62,378 nt of DNA from Solobacterium sp. (GTDB lineage Bacteria > Bacillota_I > Bacilli_A > Erysipelotrichales > Erysipelotrichaceae): NCBI GenBank assembly GCA_017469355.1, contig JAFUGM010000035.1:1-62378 (forward strand). Reading direction: 5' to 3'. Within the stretch, counting starts at the first letter, position 1; every line of letters begins with the position of its first letter. The notes beneath the pieces are model-generated. The model was given only the letters and a program-made list of their open reading frames with translations. It had not been told where the DNA came from and did not search any database. Below are positions 21,280 through 35,907 of the stretch, piece after piece. Both the position numbers and the translations under genes were made by a program.

Positions 21280-21939
21280 ATGAAGGAAACCATGTTAATG
21301 ACACAGGCACTGGATGAGAGGGATCTTCTAGTAAAAAAGATCAATGACAAGCTGGAGCGCCTGGAGGCGGCAGATGTGAAGAAACGAAATGAATCTAAGG
21401 GAATGAACTATATTCATACACCTGAAGAGTTTAAGAAAGATACCACATCTGCTTACCAGCAGATCATGGATCTGATCCGCCGTTACCAGCGGTTGGATGC
21501 GGCAATCATTTCATCCAATGCGGCGACAACGGTGGAAACGAGTTACGGAACACTGAGTGTCGCTTCGGCAATCGCCTTACGAAATCGTCTGAATAAAAAG
21601 GGGATTTATGGTGAACAGGGGTATTTTGAAGAGAGGTTGATTAACCAGCTGGAGAATTCCTATGAATATGCGCTTACGCAGGCAAAAGCGATGAACCAGA
21701 GGCTGGAATCACAGGCAGAATCCATGCGGTTAAGCATTCTTGGCAAAGATGCGAGAGGTAAGGAAGATAAACCACTGGAAGTTGTTGAAGCCTATGTGAA
21801 AGAAAACACAGCGGAAGTAATGGATCCGCTGGATGTGAATGCGAAAACAAAGGAACTGCAGGAGATGATTGATCGGGTACGCAGTGAACTGGATACCAGA
21901 ATCAAAGTGGCGAACGCCACCACAGTGATTGAGTTTTAA
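21280..21939 (+). CDS. Hypothetical coiled-coil protein, vaguely DIP1984/septicolysin-like
   Basis: The 219-residue soluble protein is highly charged with helical N- and C-terminal parts. A central stretch SNAATTVETSYGTLSVASAI followed by ALRNRL resembles the pattern of the DIP1984 (septicolysin) group, in which an Asn-Ala-Ala-Thr turn leads into an ALxxR helix. That group is usually shorter, near 150 residues, so I treat the likeness as weak. It has its own promoter and a strong AGGAGG before the ATG and stands alone between the glycan operon and the structured RNA region. No signal peptide is seen. Confidence 0.6.
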   Translation: MKETMLMTQALDERDLLVKKINDKLERLEAADVKKRNESKGMNYIHTPEEFKKDTTSAYQQIMDLIRRYQRLDAAIISSNAATTVETSYGTLSVASAIALRNRLNKKGIYGEQGYFEERLINQLENSYEYALTQAKAMNQRLESQAESMRLSILGKDARGKEDKPLEVVEAYVKENTAEVMDPLDVNAKTKELQEMIDRVRSELDTRIKVANATTVIEF

Positions 21940-21944
21940 AAAAG

Positions 21945-22465
21945 ATGTCTTCCATACGAAAACTTCAAACCCGCTTCCCCATCAGCTGGGTGACGCTGAA
22001 ATCTGCCTGCCCGAGGCGAATCGGGCTTAAACTTGCCAAGGTGAAGTAGTTCAGAGGCTGAACATATGACTTGTACTCATAAAGACGCGGGTTCGAATCC
22101 TGCCTTTACTAAAACTGGCGTACGAATAGAACGGATAATTGTGAAATAACACCTGGTACTTTGTAACAGTAAACGATGAATGAAGATAACTAAGACGAGG
22201 GAACGTTGCTTGGTGAAGCAGACATACCCATAAGGGGAATTGTCGAAATCCATGAGAGCTGGTTCTGCGCTGAAGCGGTTGGCGTGAAGTTCCCACATGG
22301 CTGTATGGCAGACATCACTTCAATACTCAAACCTGTTTCAGCCGGAACTTCCAAGCATGACACGGAAGGGCCGGCTGAGTTTTATTATGAGGATAAACAT
22401 TGTCCGGAACTGCTATTTTGCGGTTCCTATCGGTTGAAAACCCTTACACGAAAATCGTAAAATAA
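21945..22465 (+). ncRNA. Candidate large structured RNA containing a tRNA
   Basis: About 520 bases lack a credible gene but are dense in hairpins. GCCCGA...TCGGGC pair at about 22010-22027, then comes the tRNA at 22040-22111. TGCTT...AAGCA pair near 22206, CCATG...CATGG enclose 22250-22300, TGAAGT...ACTTCA pair at about 22285-22322. CAGCCGG...CCGGCTG at about 22339-22377 is followed by TTTTATT, and GGAAC...GTTCC near 22404-22427. ROOL and GOLLD RNAs of Firmicutes and their phages are several hundred bases long and often sit beside or around tRNAs, so they are the first families to test. Sequence identity to either is not claimed. Confidence 0.45.
22040..22111 (+). tRNA. tRNA-Thr (anticodon UGU), atypical
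   Basis: The 72-base cloverleaf has a 7-bp acceptor stem (with G-U at positions 1-72 and 4-69), U8-A9, a D stem GTTC/GAAC with GG in the loop, and an anticodon stem TATGA/TCATA around CTTGTAC. A 5-base variable loop and a T arm GCGGG-TTCGAAT-CCTGC follow. Anticodon TGT reads ACA, and A37 follows U36 as expected for Thr. CCA is not encoded and the two G-U pairs in the acceptor are unusual. It is a lone tRNA with no tRNA neighbours, embedded in a structured gene-free region. Confidence 0.7.
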
Positions 22466-26583: not shown

Positions 26584-26629
26584 GATTAAGTCAATAAGGG
26601 GTAACCCAACATAGAAAGAGGAGATGACA

Positions 26630-27031
26630 ATGAAGAAGAACAACAAAAAAGGTTTCACACTTGCCGAGCTTCTGATCGTTGTTGCGATTATCGGCGTATT
26701 AGTAGCAATTAGCATTCCCATTTTCACAAGCCAGCTTGAGAAGAGTAGAGAAGCGGTAGACCTTGCTAACATTCGTGCTGCATATGCTGAATGCACAGCA
26801 GAGGCAATTACTGGAACAGAAGCCGGTTATTCTAAGAAGGTTGAAATTAAGCAGAGCGATAAAAGCGGTTGGATTACTGATGCATCTAATGTCGCAGGAG
26901 AAGATATTTCTACTGAGACTCTTAAAGATGATATGTACGTAAATGTTTCAAGCGAAGGAGTATTCACATTTAAAGACGCAATGGAAACGGAATTCGTAGA
27001 TATCGATGCCTCCGCTTCCACAAACCAGTGA
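26630..27031 (+). CDS. pilA: Major type IV pilin (expression locus)
   Basis: The 133-residue prepilin has leader MKKNNKKG cut before Phe, then mature FTLAELLIVVAIIGVLVAIS with Glu5 for assembly and N-methylation by PilD. The helix continues to about mature residue 45, and the C-terminal part is a short variable globular domain lacking a Cys pair. ATG 26630 is preferred to 26624 because AGGAG lies seven bases before it. From mature Gly14 (base 26693) its sequence begins a block shared with five truncated cassettes downstream. It is the only complete member, so it should provide the fixed 5' end for any cassette switching. A hairpin terminator follows. Confidence 0.93.
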   Translation: MKKNNKKGFTLAELLIVVAIIGVLVAISIPIFTSQLEKSREAVDLANIRAAYAECTAEAITGTEAGYSKKVEIKQSDKSGWITDASNVAGEDISTETLKDDMYVNVSSEGVFTFKDAMETEFVDIDASASTNQ

Positions 27032-27044
27032 TAATTAGCTATTA

Positions 27045-27066
27045 AAGTCCTCTTTGGAGGGCTTTT
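27045..27066 (+). terminator. Terminator of the pilin gene
   Basis: AGTCCTC and GAGGGCT pair with one G-U and are followed by TTTTT. Nine bases later cassette 1 begins, so pilin and cassette are separated only by this terminator. Confidence 0.7.
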
Positions 27067-27074
27067 TCAGTTCC

Positions 27075-27413
27075 GGCGTATTAGTAGCAATTAGCATTCC
27101 CATTTTCACAGCGCAGTTAGAAAAAGCTAGAGAAGCTACTGACCTCGCAAATATTCGTGCTGCTTATGCGGAAGTGGTTTCTGCAAAATTAACTGATGAA
27201 TCAGCTACACCTACAGCCACAGTTGAATTAAAGCAGCAGAAGGATGGATGGGAGACTGCTAATCCTGAAGTTGCTGGTGCCGTTTTACCAGATACCGTTG
27301 CTGTAGCAGGTGACTCCGTAGTTATTACTTTTGATGCAGATGGTGATGTGACTATTGGTGGAGTGAAAACTAAAGGTTCAGCTCTTAATTCTTCCACACC
27401 TTCAGGTGACTAA
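27075..27413 (+). pseudogene. Silent pilin cassette 1 (direct orientation)
   Basis: The 339 bases read as 112 codons plus stop, beginning at the Gly14 codon with GVLVAISIPIFTAQLEKARE. There is no leader, start codon or ribosome binding site; the bases before it are the pilin terminator. The first 36 bases are identical to the expression locus, then the sequence diverges in the globular part, which ends NSSTPSGD. The frame is open throughout, which argues against simple decay. Recombination with the expressed gene would delete 382 bases and replace the pilin body. Its own terminator lies at 27430-27456. Confidence 0.85.
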
Positions 27414-27429
27414 AGATTCTCAAAATGAT

Positions 27430-27456
27430 CCTCCGGCAATACCCGGAGGTTTTTTA
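27430..27456 (+). terminator. Terminator of pilin cassette 1
   Basis: CCTCCGG at 27430-27436 pairs with CCGGAGG at 27443-27449, followed by seven T. Confidence 0.8.
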
Positions 27457-27683
27457 TTTGACATAAGTCATTTTGATCCCCATTATTACTGCTTATGCCT
27501 ATGTAGGTATCCAATAAACATCATTAATAAACGAAGCTGGATCCTATCAGACTTATCTTGTGCTGAAAGGAATTGGTATTTAATTGCGATGTAGCGGACG
27601 ATTAAGTAATGAAAAATCATGCTGATGGATATAATCCGGATAATGACTAATTTTTTTAGTACATCGTTGCTGCGTTGCAATAG
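27457..27683. other. Gene-free spacer between cassettes 1 and 2
   Basis: About 230 AT-rich bases between the convergent terminators of cassettes 1 and 2. Only short unsupported frames are present. I see no repeat or gene remnant in it. Confidence 0.4.
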
Positions 27684-27717
27684 AAAAACTCTCTGTTTAA
27701 ACAGAACCAGAGAGTTA
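27684..27717 (-). terminator. Terminator of pilin cassette 2
   Basis: AACTCTCT at 27687-27694 pairs with AGAGAGTT at 27709-27716; on the minus strand the stem is followed by a T run. It lies 40 bases beyond the stop of cassette 2. Confidence 0.7.
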
Positions 27718-27756
27718 TCATTGTTTTGAATCATCTTTTACTGTAAAGCAAAATCA

Positions 27757-28128
27757 TTAAGGATTTGAGCTAGCTGGAGTTCCTGCGCCAAAGGTGACTG
27801 TGTCATTTACGCCAGCCTTCGAACACGCATCAACTTCTACATTAGGATATGCATCCGCTGTACCTTTAGTAAATGTGACCTTTACGATCCCAGAAAAATC
27901 AAATGTACTAGATGAACCATCTCCGTTAGTTACTGTAATTGTTTGCTTAGTACCACTAGCATTAACATTTTCACTTATCGCAAAACTAGTGCTGTGACCT
28001 CCATCATTAGCCAAATAATCTGCAACCATTTCCGCATAGATACTACGTGCATTAGCTTCATCAGCCGCATACTTTGCCTTATTTAGTTGAGCTGTAAAAA
28101 TGGGAATAGATACTGCTACTAATACGCC
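27757..28128 (-). pseudogene. Silent pilin cassette 2 (inverted)
   Basis: The 372 bases start at the same Gly14 codon (GVLVAVSIPIFTAQLNKAKY) and stay open for 123 codons to a stop, ending GAGTPASSNP. Its 5' block is the most diverged of the five, with seven mismatches in the first 36 bases, including a run of differences after base 15. The cassette begins 12 bases after the Fic stop codon on the same strand and has no start signals of its own. Inversion between 26693 and 28128 would place it behind the pilin promoter and park the old pilin body here. Confidence 0.85.
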
Positions 28129-28140
28129 GCTCCTGATCTA

Positions 28141-29052
28141 TCAGTAAGGAATTTTAAGCATATCCAATAATTCAATGAATGTATCCTGCCCATCTTTACA
28201 GGTATCAATTAACCATCCATGGTTTTCATTCCATTTGGAAAGGCCTCTGTAATAGTAGGCCTTCTTTTGATCTTCAATCAGGAATGGAATGATGTTGTGA
28301 TGTAGGCATTCCTTCAATGCAACTAATCGCCCAACACGACCGTTACCATCATCGAAGGGATGGATTCTTTCAAACAAGACATGAAATGAGATGATATCTT
28401 CTAATGTCGTTGTTTGAAGGGAATGGTATGACTTCAATAAGTTCTTCATTTCCCGGTTAACATCTTTTACTGGCGTCGTTTCTCTTCCGCCAACTGTGTT
28501 CTCTTCTCTCTTATACTCTCCAGCATTCTGAAATAACTTCTGAACGGCTGTGGTATCCCGTTTCAGAATGAAATGTATATTCTTAATAATGTCTTCTGTA
28601 AGTGGTTCTTCAGCTCTATCAATAACATAGTTTAAGGCGGAGAAATGATGGATGGTTTCCAGGATATCATCTGTTGGTATTGCAATATCGGTAAGCAGAC
28701 TTCTTGTCTCATAGATCATACGTGTCTGTTCTTCGGTAAGCATTGATCCTTCGATATGGTTGGAGTTATATGCCATACGTACTTGTAATTCGTGATACAG
28801 GCCTCCGGAACTACCGGTTTCTTTTTCTGTTCTTAATCTTCGCAATATCAGATTATCTGCCTCAATGTGATATAGAGAATGAACATCAGTATCAAGATAT
28901 GTCGCAATCCTATCCAAGGTGCGATCGGATAATTTTTCGTTCTTTGCAATTTTAGCTACCGTACGTGAGGATAGACCAAGATCTTTCACTAGATCTGTTT
29001 TCTGTATTCCCTTTTCCAGAAGTATTTGTTTCAGTTCATCGTATATATACAT
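28141..29052 (-). CDS. Fic/DOC family protein with N-terminal HTH
   Basis: The 303-residue protein has an XRE-type helix-turn-helix at residues 8-55, an inhibitory-type helix with SNHIEG (S/TxxxEG) at 97-102, and a complete Fic motif HPFDDGNGRVGR at about 231-242. Fic enzymes transfer AMP or another nucleotide part to target hydroxyls; the inhibitory motif before the core makes this an autoinhibited class II protein. The HTH suggests that it regulates its own gene. It stands alone, and the stop is followed after 12 bases by pilin cassette 2. It may be a self-regulating toxin-like module. Confidence 0.88.
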   Translation of the reverse strand: MYIYDELKQILLEKGIQKTDLVKDLGLSSRTVAKIAKNEKLSDRTLDRIATYLDTDVHSLYHIEADNLILRRLRTEKETGSSGGLYHELQVRMAYNSNHIEGSMLTEEQTRMIYETRSLLTDIAIPTDDILETIHHFSALNYVIDRAEEPLTEDIIKNIHFILKRDTTAVQKLFQNAGEYKREENTVGGRETTPVKDVNREMKNLLKSYHSLQTTTLEDIISFHVLFERIHPFDDGNGRVGRLVALKECLHHNIIPFLIEDQKKAYYYRGLSKWNENHGWLIDTCKDGQDTFIELLDMLKIPY

Positions 29053-29099
29053 AGATTTGAATCTCCAGATACATAAAAATATGTAGCTCTTTAATAATA

Positions 29100-29165
29100 G
29101 TAAAGATTCGAAAAATAATGAATTAAAAAGTAAAGATTTTGAATCGTTTGCTCTAGTATCTTTAC
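29100..29165. promoter_or_regulatory. Three GTAAAGAT boxes upstream of the Fic gene
   Basis: GTAAAGATT occurs at 29100 and 29130 in direct orientation, 30 bases apart, and ATCTTTAC (inverted) at 29158-29165. They lie 48-113 bases upstream of the Fic start and could be operators for its HTH domain. Function is inferred. Confidence 0.45.
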
Positions 29166-29395
29166 ATTGGTAGCATTCATTGGTTATAACGAGTTACGAA
29201 ACCATGATTTTAGAGCGGATACGGCGGAAAATATGGAATGTGCGCCGCTATGAATTATGCCATGAAAATCGGCCAATCAGTGCCACTTACGTCCGAACCG
29301 TTTAATAATAATGGGGGGTTCAAGTTTGATCTACTTATTGAATTCTCTTGAAAACAGATGAAAGATACACTTTGTAAGTGACCATAAAAACACAG
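29166..29395. other. Gene-free spacer between Fic and YefM-YoeB
   Basis: About 230 bases separate the divergent promoter regions of the Fic gene and the YefM-YoeB pair. No open frame with start signals and no clear repeat is seen. Confidence 0.35.
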
Positions 29396-29398
29396 AAT

Positions 29399-29427
29399 TT
29401 GACGTACAGAATTCTGTACGCTATATT
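29399..29427 (+). promoter_or_regulatory. YefM-YoeB promoter with palindromic operator
   Basis: TTGACG at 29399-29404 and TATATT at 29422-29427 have 17-base spacing. Between them lies an exact 18-base palindrome at 29403-29420 (CGTACAGAATTCTGTACG). YefM-type antitoxins bind operators with TGTACA-like cores between or beside the promoter boxes, so autorepression is likely. Confidence 0.8.
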
Positions 29428-29447
29428 ATTTGTATCAGGAGGAAATT

Positions 29448-29711
29448 ATGATTGCTGTTAACTATACACAATTTCGCGATCAGATGAAAACACATTTGGA
29501 TCTTGTTACAGATGACTTTGAATCGTTGGTTGTTACAAGGAAGGGAAACAGAAATGTTGTTATTCTTTCTGAAGAAGCCTACAACAATCTTCTTGAAAAC
29601 ATATATGTAATGGGTAATAAAGCCAATTATGATTGGCTGATGGAATCTAAAGCTCAGCTTAATATGGGTAAAACTAAAGTCCATGATTTGATTGAGGTTG
29701 AGGATGAATAA
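29448..29711 (+). CDS. yefM: Antitoxin, YefM/Phd family
   Basis: The 87-residue protein begins with the Phd/YefM N-terminal fold (VNYTQFRDQMKTHLDLVTDD), a basic strand VVTRKGNRNVVILSEEAYN and an acidic C-terminus that would wrap the toxin. It binds the palindromic operator upstream and neutralises the next gene's product. ATG 29448 has GGAGG eight bases upstream. Its stop overlaps the toxin start by eight bases, so translation is coupled, as usual for the family. Confidence 0.9.
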   Translation: MIAVNYTQFRDQMKTHLDLVTDDFESLVVTRKGNRNVVILSEEAYNNLLENIYVMGNKANYDWLMESKAQLNMGKTKVHDLIEVEDE

Positions 29712-29967
29712 GCGCTTTACTGATAATGGATGGGATGACTATACATATTGGCAAACAGAAGATAAGAAGACCTTAAAGAGAATTAATGCTTTGCTGAAGG
29801 ATATCGATCGTAATGGTAATGAAGGTATAGGTAAACCTGAACCTTTATCCGGAGATCTTGCGGGGTTCTGGAGTCGTAGAATAAACGATAAAGATCGATT
29901 GATCTATCGGATCATTGATGATGAAATTGTTGTTCTAGCATGCAGAACTCACTATGGCGATAAATGA
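29704..29967 (+). CDS. yoeB: Toxin, YoeB family mRNA interferase
   Basis: The 87-residue RelE-fold toxin has the family sequence WDDYTYWQTEDKKTLKRIN, a KPEPLSGDLAGFWSRRIN stretch with the catalytic-region Arg residues, DRLIYRI and a C-terminal ACRTHYGDK with the conserved His and Tyr. It cleaves mRNA at the ribosome when free of YefM. ATG 29704 inside the yefM end is the natural start. Pilin cassette 3 begins 124 bases downstream in the same direction, with no gene between. Confidence 0.92.
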   Translation: MNKRFTDNGWDDYTYWQTEDKKTLKRINALLKDIDRNGNEGIGKPEPLSGDLAGFWSRRINDKDRLIYRIIDDEIVVLACRTHYGDK

Positions 29968-30090
29968 ATATTCTGCAAAGAATAGTAATGCTAACCAAAC
30001 TCTGCAGGCGCAACTTGCGCTTTAATTACTGTTACGCCTTAGCGATTATCAGCAGAACGTAATGTTCCCTAAGCAGGAGCATTTTACGTA

Positions 30091-30417
30091 GGCGTATTAG
30101 TAGCAATTAGCATTCCCATTTTCACAAGCCAGCTGGAGAAGGCAAGAGAAGCTACAGATATGGCAAACATTAGAAACGCATATGCCGAAGTTGTATCAGC
30201 ATACTTAAGTGACAATAGCACAGAACCTAAAACTGTAAAACTGACACAGACTGTAAAGGGATGGAAAACTGCCGAATCTAATACTGATGCTAATATTGCA
30301 GGTGTAAAGCTTACTGAAATTCCTTCTGAAGGATCGGTTGAAGTAAAAGCTGATGCTACTGGAAAAGTTACTATTGGTGGTGTTACAGTCCCTGAAAATG
30401 AGGGAGAAGGCGAGTAA
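30091..30417 (+). pseudogene. Silent pilin cassette 3 (direct orientation)
   Basis: The 327 bases start at the Gly14 codon and read GVLVAISIPIFTSQLEKARE through 108 codons to TAA, ending PENEGEGE. The first 44 bases match the expression locus exactly. No start codon or ribosome binding site precedes it; the 123 bases before it hold a GCGCAA/TTGCGC hairpin only. Recombination with the expressed gene would delete about 3.4 kb, including the Fic and YefM-YoeB genes. Confidence 0.85.
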
Positions 30418-30439
30418 CAACGAATATTTCTCTGAAAAG

Positions 30440-30476
30440 GATTCTTGAAGTTTTTACTAAGCAAGAATCTTTTTTT
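30440..30476 (+). terminator. Terminator of pilin cassette 3
   Basis: GATTCTTG at 30440-30447 pairs with CAAGAATC at 30462-30469, followed by a run of seven T. Confidence 0.75.
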
Positions 30477-30552
30477 CTGCTTATGCATAAGATCTAATTT
30501 AACATTTTGTTAAAAGGAATATTTTGAAATATGCACTAGTATACAGAGCAAT

Positions 30553-30594
30553 TGAAAAACGCACTACATCACATACAGCTTTGTAGCGCGTTTT
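30553..30594 (-). terminator. Displaced terminator of cassette 4
   Basis: AAAACGC-CTACA and TGTAG-GCGTTTT arms pair between 30555 and 30594, with a T run on the minus strand. It faces cassette 4 but is now separated from it by the miniature element at 30625-30966, which inserted between stop codon and terminator. Confidence 0.55.
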
Positions 30595-30624
30595 CGGATA
30601 TATTAAACAATATAGCGGTTAAGC

Positions 30625-30966
30625 TGCAAATTCCGGAGCGGCGGAGCTATTAATCCGGTGAAATCGGAACCAGCATTCCGGTAAAACTGGTACCGTACCT
30701 GTGAGGTGCTTTATGCCGAGAAAGCACTTCTGTACGGGAATCCCCCTGTTACACTGGTGTTCCAGGTGCCCGGGAAGGGTTCACTTACCGGGACGGCTGT
30801 CTTTTGGGGTTACAGGGGGATAGGGTCCCATACAGAAGTGTCTTGGAATAAACACCGAACAGGAATACGTCTCTTCTTCACAGTAGTTCTTCAGCGGTAC
30901 CAATCAAACCGGAAATGCGGTACCAGCTCTTACCGGAATCCCTGGTCCAAAATTCCGGAATCTGCA
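30625..30966. mobile_element. IS21-like miniature element (MITE), 342 bp
   Basis: The element is flanked by a 7-bp direct repeat GTTAAGC at 30618-30624 and 30967-30973. Its ends are inverted repeats: TGCAAATTCCGGA on the left and, read inward, TGCAGATTCCGGA on the right. Both ends carry repeated CTGGTACCG units (30687-30695 and, inverted, 30918-30926), as in terminal repeat arrays of IS21-type elements. The centre folds into a long imperfect hairpin (CACTTCTGTA at 30725 with TACAGAAGTG at 30831; TCCCCCTGT with ACAGGGGGA). No transposase is encoded, so it would need one in trans. Confidence 0.7.
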
Positions 30967-30977
30967 GTTAAGCTACT

Positions 30978-31283
30978 TTACCATGAAACTGTTGGTGCAG
31001 CATCAGAATTTGCCGTCCAAGTAAATGTAACTTCATGCTCGCCAGCCGCAGGCTCTGTTAGGGAGCTTACATCAAAAGGAAGCTCTGATGCTAATCCACT
31101 AAAGTTATCAGAAGATACCTGTCCTTTAAATGAAACGGTCTTTTTCACTTCTAATGTATTAGATGTCAAAACTTCTGTGGCAGCTTCTGCATATGCTGAT
31201 CTTAAATTAGCAACAGACACTGCATCACGGCTTTTCTCAAGCTGGCTTGTGAAAATGGGAATGCTAATTGCTACTAATACGCC
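30978..31283 (-). pseudogene. Silent pilin cassette 4 (inverted)
   Basis: The 306 bases start at the Gly14 codon and stay open for 101 codons (GVLVAISIPIFTSQLEKSRD...), ending DAAPTVSW. The first 50 bases are identical to the expression locus, the longest match of any cassette. The bases before it are the terminator of cassette 5, the same arrangement as between the expressed pilin and cassette 1. No start signals are present. The miniature element sits five bases past its stop. Confidence 0.85.
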
Positions 31284-31288
31284 GAAAT

Positions 31289-31320
31289 GAAAAACCCTCA
31301 TAAGACATATGGTAGAGGGT
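31289..31320 (-). terminator. Terminator of pilin cassette 5
   Basis: ACCCTC at 31294-31299 pairs with GAGGGT at 31315-31320; on the minus strand it is followed by a T run and then cassette 4. Confidence 0.7.
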
Positions 31321-31340
31321 TTCAAATATTTATTCTGCGT

Positions 31341-31700
31341 TTATTTGGCAATTGATATCGTTGGTGCAGAGCCATCACTTTTTACTGTAATAGTAGCTGT
31401 CCCAGTTGTAAATTGAGCGGAAGTTAACGTAACACCACCAATATTGATAGATGCACTATCACCAGCTTCTAAACCATCTTTTTGTTGAGTCATTGTATAT
31501 GTTGCAGTGCATGTTAACACCTTATCATCTCCCTGAGTGATAGTTACTTTTCCGTCCGCTGACGTTCCAGTTGCAGTTGCAGTGAGAGCCTCTGAGGCGC
31601 ATTCAGCATACAATGAACGAATATTAGCCTCATCAGTAGCTTCTCGAGCCTTCTCTAACTGCGCTGTGAAAATGGGAATACTAATTGCAACTAATACGCC
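31341..31700 (-). pseudogene. Silent pilin cassette 5 (inverted)
   Basis: The 360 bases start at the Gly14 codon (GVLVAISIPIFTAQLEKARE) and stay open for 119 codons to a stop, ending GSAPTISIAK. Two of the first 36 bases differ from the expression locus. The stretch after it matches cassette 1 closely (AQLEKAREATD), hinting at past exchange between cassettes. It begins 10 bases after the HigA-type stop on the same strand and lacks its own start signals. Confidence 0.85.
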
Positions 31701-31710
31701 GATGTATGAT

Positions 31711-32025
31711 TTATAAGCGAATGTTTAGACTGGTATTAATATCGATAGGTGAAATATTATCCAGTTCTTTACTGATTATTTCCTTTTCATTCCGTATGTC
31801 TATATCACTCTGAATGTTTAGAAAATACCGATCGGATACCCCGAAGTATTTACCTAGGCGGAGTGAAGTGTCCACAGTGACTTTTCTTCTATCATGCAAG
31901 ATATCCTGAATACGTGATACAGGAACTCCTATATCATTTGCTAATTTATATGCGGATATATTTAATGGCTCCATAAATTCTTCATATAACACTTCACTCA
32001 TTTTTGGTGTTTTGATTCTGGGCAT
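31711..32025 (-). CDS. HigA-type HTH antitoxin, apparently orphan
   Basis: The 104-residue protein has the HigA pattern: an N-terminal PKMSEVLYEEFMEPLNISAY, then a helix-turn-helix KLANDIGVPVSRIQDILHDR, then DTSLRLGKYFGVSDRYFLNI. HigA binds HigB and represses the shared promoter. No HigB-like gene is seen upstream, where only a 19-27 codon fragment ends 16 bases before the ATG. The toxin may be lost or encoded elsewhere. Pilin cassette 5 follows immediately. Confidence 0.85.
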   Translation of the reverse strand: MPRIKTPKMSEVLYEEFMEPLNISAYKLANDIGVPVSRIQDILHDRRKVTVDTSLRLGKYFGVSDRYFLNIQSDIDIRNEKEIISKELDNISPIDINTSLNIRL

Positions 32026-32405
32026 AACGTCTTCCTTCTCATTGGATTAATCATATCGATGGGTTTCCTCTATAGCAAGATAAGACAGCTTGTTAAACGG
32101 ACTCATACCATCAAAGTACTCTGGATAGATTTAGAATTAGCGGAAGAGAATGATTCCCGTATTAGTTGCTCAATTTGGGTTTTACAGCCCAGTAAATGAA
32201 AACTGAATTAGTTGCTAACTACTCTGATGTTACAGCGACATATGCAGATTAAGTTGAAATGGGTTTTGATCCGGTTGATTTCGTTCCTGATGAATGACCG
32301 TTAATTCAATAGTCAATGAAAACAATACCTGATGTTACCTATAACGTTCAGCGGACACAATAATCTCTTTAGAGAAGTATATGTAAGAGACTATTAAAAT
32401 CTGCC
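32026..32405. other. Gene-poor spacer with gene fragments
   Basis: On the minus strand a short frame reading MSPFNKLSYLAIEETHRYD stops just before higA and may be the tail of a lost gene. On the plus strand 32196-32297 holds a 34-codon fragment with one internal stop (listed separately). No intact gene is present. Confidence 0.4.
32196..32297 (+). pseudogene. Decayed small gene fragment
   Basis: ATG at 32196 opens MKTELVANYSDVTATYAD, meets a stop, then continues in the same frame as VEMGFDPVDFVPDE before a second stop. The continuity suggests one nonsense change in a small gene or gene start. I do not recognise the family. Confidence 0.3.
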
Positions 32406-33749
32406 TCACGCTAAAAGAAAGATTTCAACAGCATCTTTCCATACCTTGACTTCCTGCACCGCAGAGCGGAAGAATTCATTTAACGAAAGCAATGGACTGC
32501 AATGAATGATTGAAGTAATCAAACAGGCATGAAACTGTTCCAGAGGAGCACCGTACTGTTCTTTTAGATACCAGCGAAGTTCATGGAAGGGGAGAGAGAT
32601 CAGATATTCATTCATTGCGATCTGAATGAGATTCCAGAGATGATCTTCTTTGATATGAAAGGAGCATTCATTGGAGGAGCACTTCCAATAGAAATAACCT
32701 TCTTCTGTATTATTGCTGAAAGAACGGCGCAATGGCCTGCCACATATCCCACAGAATACCTTTCCGGTTAGAACACAATCACTTCCTCCGGAACATTGTC
32801 TTGTTCCGTGAATCGAACTGAAGTGCTTCCTTCTTATGATTTCCATCTGTACCAGTTCCCAGAATTCTGGATCAATGATCGGTTCATGATTCTGTACTAA
32901 AAGGTATTGAGGAAGTTGTCCGGTATTAAGAACCGGACGCTTGGTAATGAAGTCTTTGGAATATGTTTTCTGCATCAGCACATCACCTTTATACTTCTCA
33001 TTCGAAAGAATTCTCTGAATAGTAGAAGAACACCATCTTGGTTTCCCATAGATACCATTCACATTTGCTTTGTTTAATTGCTTCGCAATCGCATGGAAGG
33101 TATAACCTTTCATGAACTGTTCATAGATGAACTTTACAATCAGAGCCTGATCCTCATGGATGATCAGATTTCCGTCTTCATCTTTCTCATATCCCAGCAA
33201 TACATTGGCATTGATATGCGGAATTCCTTTCTTGAAGTTAGAGCGGATTCCCCATTTTGTATTCTCGGAAATATTGCGAGATTCCTCCTGTGCAAGGGAG
33301 CTGAGAATGGTAAACAGAAGTTCTCCGCTGGTATCCGTAGTCAGAATGTTCTCTTTCTCAAACAGGACCCCAATATCAAGATCCTTTAACATCCTGGAAT
33401 AACGAAGACAGTCCTGTGTATTCCGGGCAAATCTGGAAATAGACTTAGTCAGAATCAGATCGATCTTTCCGTTTCTGCAGTCCTCAATCATGGACATGAA
33501 CGCTTTGCGCTTTGATGCGGTAGTTCCTGAGATCCCTTCATCCACATAAATACCCGCATTGATGTAATTGGGGTTGGAATCAATATAGTTCCGGTAATAG
33601 TCGATCTGATTCTGACAGCTTCCAAGCTGTTCCTCATGATCAGTGGATACCCGACAATATGCCGCAACTCGAAGTTTTTCGTTTCTCGTATCCTTCTTAT
33701 GCATTGCGGCTACTTCCGTTGCGGGAAAAACAATCACGTCTTTATTCAT
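32406..33749 (-). CDS. Large serine recombinase
   Basis: The 447-residue recombinase has the serine catalytic core (AAYCRVSTD near residue 33 with the nucleophile Ser, then DEGISGT, and the LTKSISRFAR loop near residue 105). A Recombinase-type domain follows around 170-280, then a zinc ribbon CGICGRPL...CSSNEC around 340-370. ATG 33749 has AGGAGGAG ahead of it and is preferred over the longer frame. Relatives excise or integrate mobile elements, and some invert DNA. No phage or conjugation genes lie nearby; instead it borders the pilin cassette bank. It is divergent from the long pilin-like gene, 86 bases away. Confidence 0.88.
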   Translation of the reverse strand: MNKDVIVFPATEVAAMHKKDTRNEKLRVAAYCRVSTDHEEQLGSCQNQIDYYRNYIDSNPNYINAGIYVDEGISGTTASKRKAFMSMIEDCRNGKIDLILTKSISRFARNTQDCLRYSRMLKDLDIGVLFEKENILTTDTSGELLFTILSSLAQEESRNISENTKWGIRSNFKKGIPHINANVLLGYEKDEDGNLIIHEDQALIVKFIYEQFMKGYTFHAIAKQLNKANVNGIYGKPRWCSSTIQRILSNEKYKGDVLMQKTYSKDFITKRPVLNTGQLPQYLLVQNHEPIIDPEFWELVQMEIIRRKHFSSIHGTRQCSGGSDCVLTGKVFCGICGRPLRRSFSNNTEEGYFYWKCSSNECSFHIKEDHLWNLIQIAMNEYLISLPFHELRWYLKEQYGAPLEQFHACLITSIIHCSPLLSLNEFFRSAVQEVKVWKDAVEIFLLA

Positions 33750-33835
33750 TACAAACTCCTCCTTTTTCTTCATCCTGAAAGATAAAAGGGAGTATATGGA
33801 TATCAATTCTTCTTAATACATGGTTGAATACTCGT

Positions 33836-34729
33836 ATGAGACGGAATCGAAACGGATTTACACTTGCGGAACTGCTGATTGTTGTCGCAATCATTGGAGT
33901 GCTTGTTGCGGTAAGTATTCCCATTTTCACATCGCAGTTGGAGAAATCACGTAAGGCGGTAGATCTGGCAAATATGAGAAATGCCAAAGCAGCGGCAGTT
34001 GCTCAGTATTATTCGGATGGAATGCCTGAACAGGCGCTTTATTACTATGATGCTTCGAAAGGGATTGCGGTTTCCTCTCCCTCTGGGATTACTGGATATG
34101 GAAAGTCTTCTTCTGCAATAGAAGGGGCTAATGGCATTCCGAATCCAGGTGGAAGTACACCACGGGTAGTAAATGTTCAGATTACGGAAGGCGGTTCGCT
34201 CATTCGTCTTAACTGGGGCGCAACGGCAGACCGGTCTATTACTTCCATGTCAGAGATCGGAGAAAACGGAGTGAATGATGCGGCTAGAGTCGCGCAGGAC
34301 ACAACACTCCTGAATGCCCTTCAAGAATCCATTCAGGGAATGACTGCAGGGGAATTGAAATCAATGATTGAAGGGAATACAAACAGTAAGGATTTTGTTC
34401 TTGCGATGACTAATTCACGCGTTGTTGGACAACAGACATCACTGAATGTGAATACACTTCAAAAACAATATATCAATGCGGGCTTTACTGACTTGTTTGC
34501 GTCGATTGGAGTGGATGCCGATAAGGTGAATGCTAAGGAAGAAGTGCTCATAACGACTGCTGGAAGCGGAAATGATGTCCGTATCAAAGTGAATGTAGGG
34601 AATAGGGATCTTTCTCAGCTCAGTGATGATACGGTGCTCACAAATGCTTATGTTTACCTTGATGCCCAGGATGCTCAGGATAAGAAGTATTCATCTCTTT
34701 ATACCGCAGAGCGTTCGAAGACAAAGTGA
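33836..34729 (+). CDS. Long type IV pilin-like protein
   Basis: The 297-residue prepilin has leader MRRNRNG, then mature FTLAELLIVVAIIGVLVAVS with Glu5. A helix follows to about residue 50, then a large globular part with no Cys pair. Residues 70-110 (YYYDASKG, GYGKSSS) resemble the next gene, so the two are paralogues. Its size and position after the cassette bank suggest a minor or tip pilin. ATG 33836 is chosen for the leader; no Shine-Dalgarno is seen. It shares only a short base stretch with the cassettes (ATTCCCATTTTCACA), so it is probably not part of the switching set. Confidence 0.8.
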   Translation: MRRNRNGFTLAELLIVVAIIGVLVAVSIPIFTSQLEKSRKAVDLANMRNAKAAAVAQYYSDGMPEQALYYYDASKGIAVSSPSGITGYGKSSSAIEGANGIPNPGGSTPRVVNVQITEGGSLIRLNWGATADRSITSMSEIGENGVNDAARVAQDTTLLNALQESIQGMTAGELKSMIEGNTNSKDFVLAMTNSRVVGQQTSLNVNTLQKQYINAGFTDLFASIGVDADKVNAKEEVLITTAGSGNDVRIKVNVGNRDLSQLSDDTVLTNAYVYLDAQDAQDKKYSSLYTAERSKTK

Positions 34730-34776
34730 AGTTCGTAGTATAAGTAATAAGAAGATTTTGCGTTGAGGTAGTGATA

Positions 34777-35907
34777 ATGCGAGAAAGAAGGATAAATCAG
34801 GGATTTACTCTAGGGGAGCTGTTAATTGTAGTGGCGATTATTGGAGTGCTGGTGTCAGTCAGTCTTCCAACCTTTACTCGTCAACTGGAGCGTTCCAGAC
34901 AGAGGGTAGATGAATCAAATATGAGATCCGCGAAGGCAGTTGCGGTGGCGGAATATCTTGCAAATGGATATTCCGATACTCCATTGAAATACTACTATGA
35001 CGCTTCCAGTGGTGACCTGGTGTTGGAGGCGCCAGAAGGATATGGAAAATCCAGAAGCCTTACCTTTGAAAACAAATTCTATGAACCGTTAGATAGTTTT
35101 ATATATATCGAAGTCTCTAAAGACGGAGTCACGCTCGAATGGAAGAAGACTGGAGATACGCTATCTAATGGAGAAAGTGGTTCACCAAGTGGATCCTCGC
35201 CTGGTTCCACTACACCTGTGACACCTCCTGAAGGAGGTGGGGAACCTTCATCTTCAGATCCTGTCGTAGATGCCTATGAACATCAACTTTCAGTAGCAAA
35301 CGACAGAATCAGAGAACTGGAGGAATTACTTGCGCAGGCACAGGGTCAAAACGCAGAGGACAATAGCAGTGAGTTGTCTTCACTTCAATCCCAGCTTGAT
35401 ACTGCAAATGCTCAGCTTGTGGAATTGTTAGTGGAAAATGAGAGACTAAGAAATCAATTGAATTCACAATCCGGTGAGTTTTTTGACTATTCTTCACTAA
35501 CAGGAGGTGCTGCAACGATTTATCAGAATGCAACAAATAAAGATGAATTTATGACGATTGAGCAACAAAAGAAAGATGGTGGAGTAATTCAATACAGCAA
35601 AGGTGATGTGATTACATATAACGGTGAGGTTTATGTTGCGATTACAGATATATCCCAGGAAGTGAATCAGTATAATAATGGAACTCCTGAAGGAAATATA
35701 TTCAGTGGTAGAATAGTTAAACTCTCATCAAATCCTATTCGCACTGATGACGACTTAGTAATAGAGTGGGGCAATTCTTATTTGGATGATGTTTCTACCG
35801 GAGATGTTTATCAAGATAAAGATGGGAATTACTATGTATGTGTGTATTTATCCCACGCGAAATCTGATCCTAAGGATACCAATGTGTGGAAATTAATCAA
35901 CATGTAG
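34777..35907 (+). CDS. Pilin-like adhesin with coiled coil and carbohydrate-binding-like tail
   Basis: The 376-residue prepilin has leader MRERRINQG, then FTLGELLIVVAIIGVLVSVS with Glu5. After a pilin-like part (YYYDASSG, GYGKSRS) comes a Ser/Thr/Pro/Gly linker at about 135-165, a coiled coil at about 168-230 (RIRELEELLAQAQ), and a C-terminal region with two segments resembling type 3 chitin-binding modules: YSKGDVITYNGEVYVAI near 270 and STGDVYQDKDGNYYVCVY near 340, the latter ending WKLIN. A pilus subunit that carries such modules at the end of a coiled stalk would suit a tip adhesin for host or food glycans. The binding role is inferred. Confidence 0.75.
   Translation: MRERRINQGFTLGELLIVVAIIGVLVSVSLPTFTRQLERSRQRVDESNMRSAKAVAVAEYLANGYSDTPLKYYYDASSGDLVLEAPEGYGKSRSLTFENKFYEPLDSFIYIEVSKDGVTLEWKKTGDTLSNGESGSPSGSSPGSTTPVTPPEGGGEPSSSDPVVDAYEHQLSVANDRIRELEELLAQAQGQNAEDNSSELSSLQSQLDTANAQLVELLVENERLRNQLNSQSGEFFDYSSLTGGAATIYQNATNKDEFMTIEQQKKDGGVIQYSKGDVITYNGEVYVAITDISQEVNQYNNGTPEGNIFSGRIVKLSSNPIRTDDDLVIEWGNSYLDDVSTGDVYQDKDGNYYVCVYLSHAKSDPKDTNVWKLINM

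Follow-up and report, generated by a model that had tools for sequence, protein, structure and literature searches.

A phage-linked structured RNA family with an embedded tRNA and a putative protein partner, found upstream of pilB in Solobacterium sp.

The window analysed here, 62,378 nucleotides from a contig of Solobacterium sp., contains between a gene for a 219-aa protein and pilB a spacer that encodes a folded RNA. The protein gene lies directly 5' of the RNA and pilB on its other side. We place the functional RNA at 21946-22314, with a terminator extending to 22379. The features of the locus are, in window coordinates:

21280-21939 (protein 21280-21936), plus strand: gene of the 219-aa partner protein; matches phrog_1491, with a DIP1984-like fold and two SNAxT motifs conserved in the family
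21946-22314, plus strand: structured RNA, from closing helix to closing helix, 369 nt; Lachnospiraceae and phage alignment, covariation
21946-21958, plus strand: closing helix P1, 5' strand, UGUCUUCCAUACG; pairs with 22302-22314 and covaries
21978-21980, plus strand: pseudoknot stem A, 5' strand, CCC; pairs with GGG at 21988-21990, invariant in 16 sequences
21982-21986, plus strand: pseudoknot stem B, 5' strand, UCAGC; pairs with 21995-21999, two-sided changes at 5 of 5 pairs
21988-21990, plus strand: pseudoknot stem A, 3' strand, GGG; same 16-sequence alignment
21995-21999, plus strand: pseudoknot stem B, 3' strand, GCUGA; same 16-sequence alignment
22040-22111, plus strand: embedded tRNA-Thr(UGU)-like module; ARAGORN and Rfam, same site in relatives with other anticodons
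22129-22191, plus strand: 7-nt repeat array, about NNTNAAN; family profile score, periodicity across the family
22221-22244, plus strand: helix P2, GACA/UGUC; covaries in relatives, where it is often a GNRA-type hairpin
22245-22300, plus strand: conserved 3' domain GAAAUCC...CAUGG; near-invariant across the family
22250-22254 with 22296-22300, plus strand: helix P3 within the 3' domain; covaries
22302-22314, plus strand: closing helix P1, 3' strand, UGUAUGGCAGACA; alignment, covariation
22337-22379, plus strand: terminator-like hairpin with a weak U tail; z -5.0

An earlier note, made from the letters of this DNA, had described the spacer as a structured, gene-free region enclosing a lone tRNA-Thr(UGU), and much of this holds. 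The spacer has no convincing gene: its 84-aa open reading frame (22206-22460) has no match in Pfam, NCBIfam or plasmids and only one at E 0.19 to phrog_27419, and was rejected as coding. The tRNA is real, being both called by ARAGORN and matched by the RF00005 cloverleaf model over all 71 positions (64.6 bits). The region is more stably folded than its shuffled versions (z -3.1; 1 of 100 did as well), and the terminator-like stem proposed near 22339-22385 corresponds to the hairpin listed above. The tRNA is not a separate element enclosed by the region, however, but sits inside one folded RNA. This placement, the partner gene upstream and the 7-nt array had all been overlooked.

The partner protein matches phrog_1491 over its full length (residues 1-219, E 4.7e-34). 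This family is labelled ‘tail fiber protein’. In the phage copies that we inspected, the gene lies among tRNAs and small genes, outside any annotated tail module, and the label is probably wrong, a propagated error. The AlphaFold model of the protein is mostly helical (mean pLDDT 82, pTM 0.60). Its best match among solved folds is 3KDQ, the Corynebacterium diphtheriae protein DIP1984 of unknown function, with a Z score of 10.8 and an rmsd of 5.0 over 150 of 152 residues (next match, 7.6); helical folds inflate Z, and the match is thus of moderate strength. Sequence matches to DUF6847 and DIP1984 are weak and below the curated cut-offs of both families (15.1 against 27 bits and 15.3 against 70 bits), and the partner protein is about 65 residues longer. 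We know of no RNA partner of DIP1984. Within the phrog_1491-related family, an SNAxT-like motif occurs twice, near the middle and at the C-terminus, and residues N80, T83, D182, P183, N212 and T215 are invariant. The window protein has no Pfam match above cut-off, no PADLOC match and no match to an enzymatic family, and no function could be assigned to it from Pfam, from PADLOC or by searching the sequences of solved structures. Weak CARF/Csx1 calls by PADLOC on one phage homologue were absent from the other four proteins scanned and were set aside.

Homologues of the protein led to homologues of the RNA. We found 23 protein homologues at 51–57% identity, mostly in Lachnospiraceae genomes; the protein is nearly missing from the window's own genus. 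It is also encoded, at 49–61% identity, in four further genomes from the window's own family, each time followed by the RNA with an internal tRNA. By tblastn, distant homologues occur in 146 phage records, among them Vequintavirinae, Demerecviridae, Otagovirus and Jenstvirus, and in 11 plasmid records (130-kb elements of C. difficile, Deinococcus and Bacillaceae). Among the annotated records that we inspected, a gap of 250–640 nt comes after the gene, and in several phages the setting is a tRNA island. The same RNA core is present in these gaps and in viral contigs found by protein alignment. The RNA follows the gene in the same orientation, usually at a distance of no more than about 100 nt and, in most members, within tens of nucleotides of the stop codon; the homologue set was gathered protein-first, and the frequency of this pairing is conditional on that. 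In most of the 23 homologue loci a tRNA follows about 100 nt downstream, again on the same strand, and blastn joins the window RNA to Lachnospiraceae loci at two conserved blocks. Taken together, these comparisons indicate that the RNA family is almost certainly real and linked to the protein. The protein lineage is widespread in large phages, often in tRNA islands, and scattered among Lachnospiraceae and the window's own family, and its horizontal spread is therefore likely.

Searches that started from the RNA were far less productive. By blastn, neither the 316 genomes searched from the order, nor the 395 from the class, nor plasmids contained a credible non-tRNA homologue of the RNA, and in phages it gave tRNA matches alone. 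Short matches in two further loci (L063 and L064) fell inside an ABC transporter gene and were discarded as chance. A single-sequence covariance model produced one weak match, inside a coding gene; an RNA-first pattern search returned chance-like matches only, and exact DNA patterns found no relative in viral contigs. In the two closest relatives, whose pilB is 92% identical, the sequence preceding pilB has about 55 bases in common with the window and is otherwise unrelated. These loci had suggested an orphan region, a reading overturned by the protein-led homologues.

Several smaller observations were made at related loci. A small helix-turn-helix gene (motif like YLGLSCPQPIYRW) lies near the module, within roughly 500 bases, in about 12 of the 23 Lachnospiraceae loci (L092, L094, L096, L099-L102, L108-L110, L112 and L113, the gene being farther off in L113). 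In the Brevibacillus phage Jenst, a skipping-rope RNA (RF02924, 67.6 bits; L115:4628-4705) sits between the protein gene and the RNA. Another genome of the window's genus (G059) has a phage-like tRNA island on the minus strand of L078, at about 935-760 and 672-555, in which a structured spacer with the closing pair AAGUCC/GGACUU occurs twice between tRNAs; Rfam finds only tRNA there.

From 5' to 3', the RNA opens with the closing helix P1, which ends in ...CG(A). Next come an H-type pseudoknot (UUCCCUGUAACAGGGUUACGUUACA in one example, UUCCCCAUCAGCUGGGUGACGCUGA in the window), a variable region holding hairpins or a tRNA, the 7-nt array, hairpin P2, which is GNRA-type in Lachnospiraceae, and then GAAAUCC, helix P3, GGCUG and the partner strand of P1. 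The window copy of P2 carries an extra CCC/GGG stem. Members are 250–420 nt long and have a conserved AAAUCC...GGCUG domain; a hairpin and U run follow P1 in 22 of 54.

The long-range helix is only modestly unusual on the window alone (10 of 500 shuffles); it was the relatives that made the case. Across 16 aligned RNAs, 99.0% of cells in the named structure pair, against 91.0% after shuffling, and two-sided changes occur at 19 of 32 pairs, against 6.0; none of 500 shuffles reached the observed value on any covariation measure. Sliding the partners by 1–3 columns lowers pairing to 27–43%. For P1, 458 of 495 cells pair in 45 non-redundant sequences, compared with a mean of 264 (maximum 300) when partners are swapped. 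P1 had been chosen by best score, and a selection-matched control was therefore made: the full helix of 11 out of 11 pairs forms in 2.4% of mismatched pairs but in 21 of 36 real ones. Under automatic anchoring, about 11 of the 54 members have fewer than 10 of the 11 P1 pairs. The earlier note had proposed a covariation test on aligned homologues, and had taken missing covariation and conservation as the signs that would speak against it. The signal is strong and the RNA is conserved in relatives, so that the evidence points the other way.

The RNA also carries a repeat array. Among 50 RNAs, a lag of 7 nt gives the top z score in 37 and a lag of 14 in 8; the mean z is 4.0 at lag 7 and at most 1.3 at lags 4–6 and 8–13. 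Lag 7 equals or beats all 60 shuffles in 41 of the 50, and the fitted repeat unit is about NNTNAAN. The window array is degenerate, with a plain lag-7 test that is not significant, and becomes clear only by the family profile, which was fitted on the 50 RNAs with the window among them: it scores 10.0, against -1.9 ± 3.5 for shuffles, none of 500 reaching it. We infer that this is a protein-binding array.

In the embedded tRNA, CCA is not encoded, the acceptor stem begins with a G1-U72 pair, and sequence identity to the ordinary tRNA-Thr(UGU) of the host is 65%. Elsewhere the host has Thr tRNAs with anticodons UGU, CGU and GGU, so that decoding does not need the embedded copy. In 18 of 54 RNAs ARAGORN detects an internal tRNA, at the same position in Lachnospiraceae, with anticodons for Thr (UGU, AGU, CGU), Ile (GAU, AAU, UAU), Met and Tyr (AUA); in the four additional genomes of the same family they are Thr GGU, Ile GAU twice and Ser UGA. 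Acceptor stems are alike among members with differing anticodons. About two-thirds of the RNAs have no tRNA by ARAGORN, and the tRNA is thus not essential to the RNA. Four Lachnospiraceae members (L105, L108, L109 and L114) lack it and keep all other parts, and in many phages a tRNA directly follows the RNA instead of lying inside it. Anticodons with A34, present in some relatives, are unusual in bacteria. Together with the G1-U72 pair, these variable anticodons argue against a strict decoding role, as far as sequence comparison can tell, and an optional, exchangeable module would fit better. In one further locus (L155), about 90–180 nt after the protein stop and in the usual insert's place, an apparent circularly permuted tRNA with the T arm before the D arm was spotted on visual inspection, but was not borne out by a simple fold.

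Given its good tRNA model score and the failure of blastn to find a credible homologue of the spacer in the order and class genomes, the locus could also be read as an ordinary horizontally acquired tRNA gene in an unremarkable spacer. Such a reading is contradicted by the covarying helices, the conserved core and the gene linkage in relatives, as well as by the four tRNA-less members, and we consider it extremely improbable.

The earlier note had pointed to large ornate RNAs that occur beside tRNAs, such as ROOL and GOLLD. The kind of RNA was right, with strongly covarying homologues, but the identification was not. Against Rfam, tRNA is the sole family in the window RNA, with one further chance-level lncRNA fragment at E ≤ 10. 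The ROOL model is unmatched at gathering or at E ≤ 10 in the window and at E ≤ 10 in L102, a better-conserved relative; its exclusion covers the window locus, L102 and the retrieved loci scanned. Likewise, the GOLLD model, which represents the conserved 3' region, and the OLE and raiA models have no match at E ≤ 10 in the window or L102. Thus, by their Rfam models, the RNA is not ROOL, GOLLD, OLE or raiA. Bacterial Y RNA (YrlA) is likewise a structured RNA with a tRNA-like part; here its model scores at chance level (14.4 bits, gathering 69), and the partner protein is not Ro60.

When comparing the RNA with known systems, large phage RNAs near tRNA islands are the nearest kind. ROOL is a large, pseudoknotted RNA of phages and prophages, often near tRNA islands (PMC12286853), and phage tRNAs sometimes lie in the linker of GOLLD (Kretsch et al., PMC12286853). 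With ROOL the RNA shares size class, pseudoknot and tRNA-island setting, and with GOLLD it shares a large structured RNA in phages and prophages near such islands and a tRNA in a linker. Whereas tRNAs lie near ROOL, they lie inside the RNA described here; compared with GOLLD, it is about half the size and has an upstream protein gene and a 7-nt array. The setting is shared, the model and the architecture are different, and the dedicated protein and repeat array set the module apart from GOLLD and ROOL. To our knowledge, no protein partner has been identified for ROOL. An RNA-only particle of this type, with the protein an accessory and the tRNA a passenger as in some GOLLD linkers, would agree with a large phage RNA near tRNA islands whose variable linker tolerates a tRNA. 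The unmatched models, the smaller size and the linkage to a dedicated protein and a repeat array make it an unlikely account.

In most members the RNA starts within tens of nucleotides of the stop codon and shares the strand of the gene. The same arrangement would be seen if the RNA were a 3' element that regulates the mRNA of the protein, bound by the protein to control its own synthesis and with no separate job. However, its size, pseudoknot, repeat array and tRNA insertions are more than an autoregulatory site typically has, tRNAs embedded in an mRNA ought to be removed from it by processing, and L111 retains the RNA despite a broken protein frame. Autoregulation therefore seems to us a poor bet. 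The protein frame is disrupted in two Lachnospiraceae loci, L105 as well as L111, with the RNA still there; this may reflect decay or an assembly error.

Type III toxin-antitoxin and AbiF systems are compact protein-RNA pairs with repeats and a pseudoknot on mobile DNA. A pair of this type, in which the RNA neutralises a toxic protein or the two act in abortive infection, would share with our module its compactness, its mobile setting, the pseudoknot with tandem repeats and the helix-turn-helix gene close to it in about 12 of 23 Lachnospiraceae loci. Here, however, the RNA lies 3' of the protein gene and has 7-nt repeats instead of repeated folded units, the window protein matches no nuclease, HEPN-type or known defence family, and its six invariant residues do not suggest a nuclease. 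We regard this explanation, too, as improbable.

We consider a phage-derived ribonucleoprotein module with an exchangeable tRNA-like part to be the best reading of these data, and probably the correct one. The region would encode the RNA of a two-component module. Gene and RNA may be transcribed together, with the closing helix and terminator stabilising the transcript. Several copies of the protein would then bind the RNA, in the simplest case with one subunit on each 7-nt repeat, and build a multi-subunit particle on the folded core. That the protein physically binds the RNA is a reasonable expectation, held with somewhat less confidence than the overall reading; a stoichiometry of one subunit per repeat is a tentative proposal. 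The tRNA module could be an exchangeable tRNA-like domain on the particle, not mainly used for decoding, which might engage a tRNA-binding factor or bait tRNA-targeting nucleases in phage-host conflict. A role as bait is rather doubtful. It would also be speculative to claim the whole combination, namely a new phage-born ribonucleoprotein class in which a DIP1984-like protein lines 7-nt repeats anchored on a pseudoknotted core, with one subunit to each repeat, and presents an exchangeable tRNA-like domain as bait or ligand when phage and host compete over tRNAs.

The module, carried by gut bacteria and large phages, is apparently undescribed: the RNA family is absent from Rfam 15, and no description was found in the searchable literature. 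A structured RNA family new to Rfam is thereby tied to a protein that occurs in 146 phage records. For a phage protein family that is uncharacterised and apparently misannotated, this provides a concrete partner to test. It is unusual to see a 7-base array within a folded RNA, and the array predicts a protein-RNA stoichiometry that can be counted. Moreover, with a swappable built-in tRNA, the reason for the presence of tRNA islands and nearby large RNAs in large phages can be tested directly on a single small gene and its RNA.

Beyond pilB-proximal features, the window holds several type IV pilin-like genes at 26624-35907 with near-identical N-terminal coding segments. Among them, at 26692 and 27074, are 100-nt direct repeats with 82% identity, and a large serine recombinase gene (32406-33806, minus strand) is flanked by pilin-like genes. 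Pilin variation by recombination is possible at this site.
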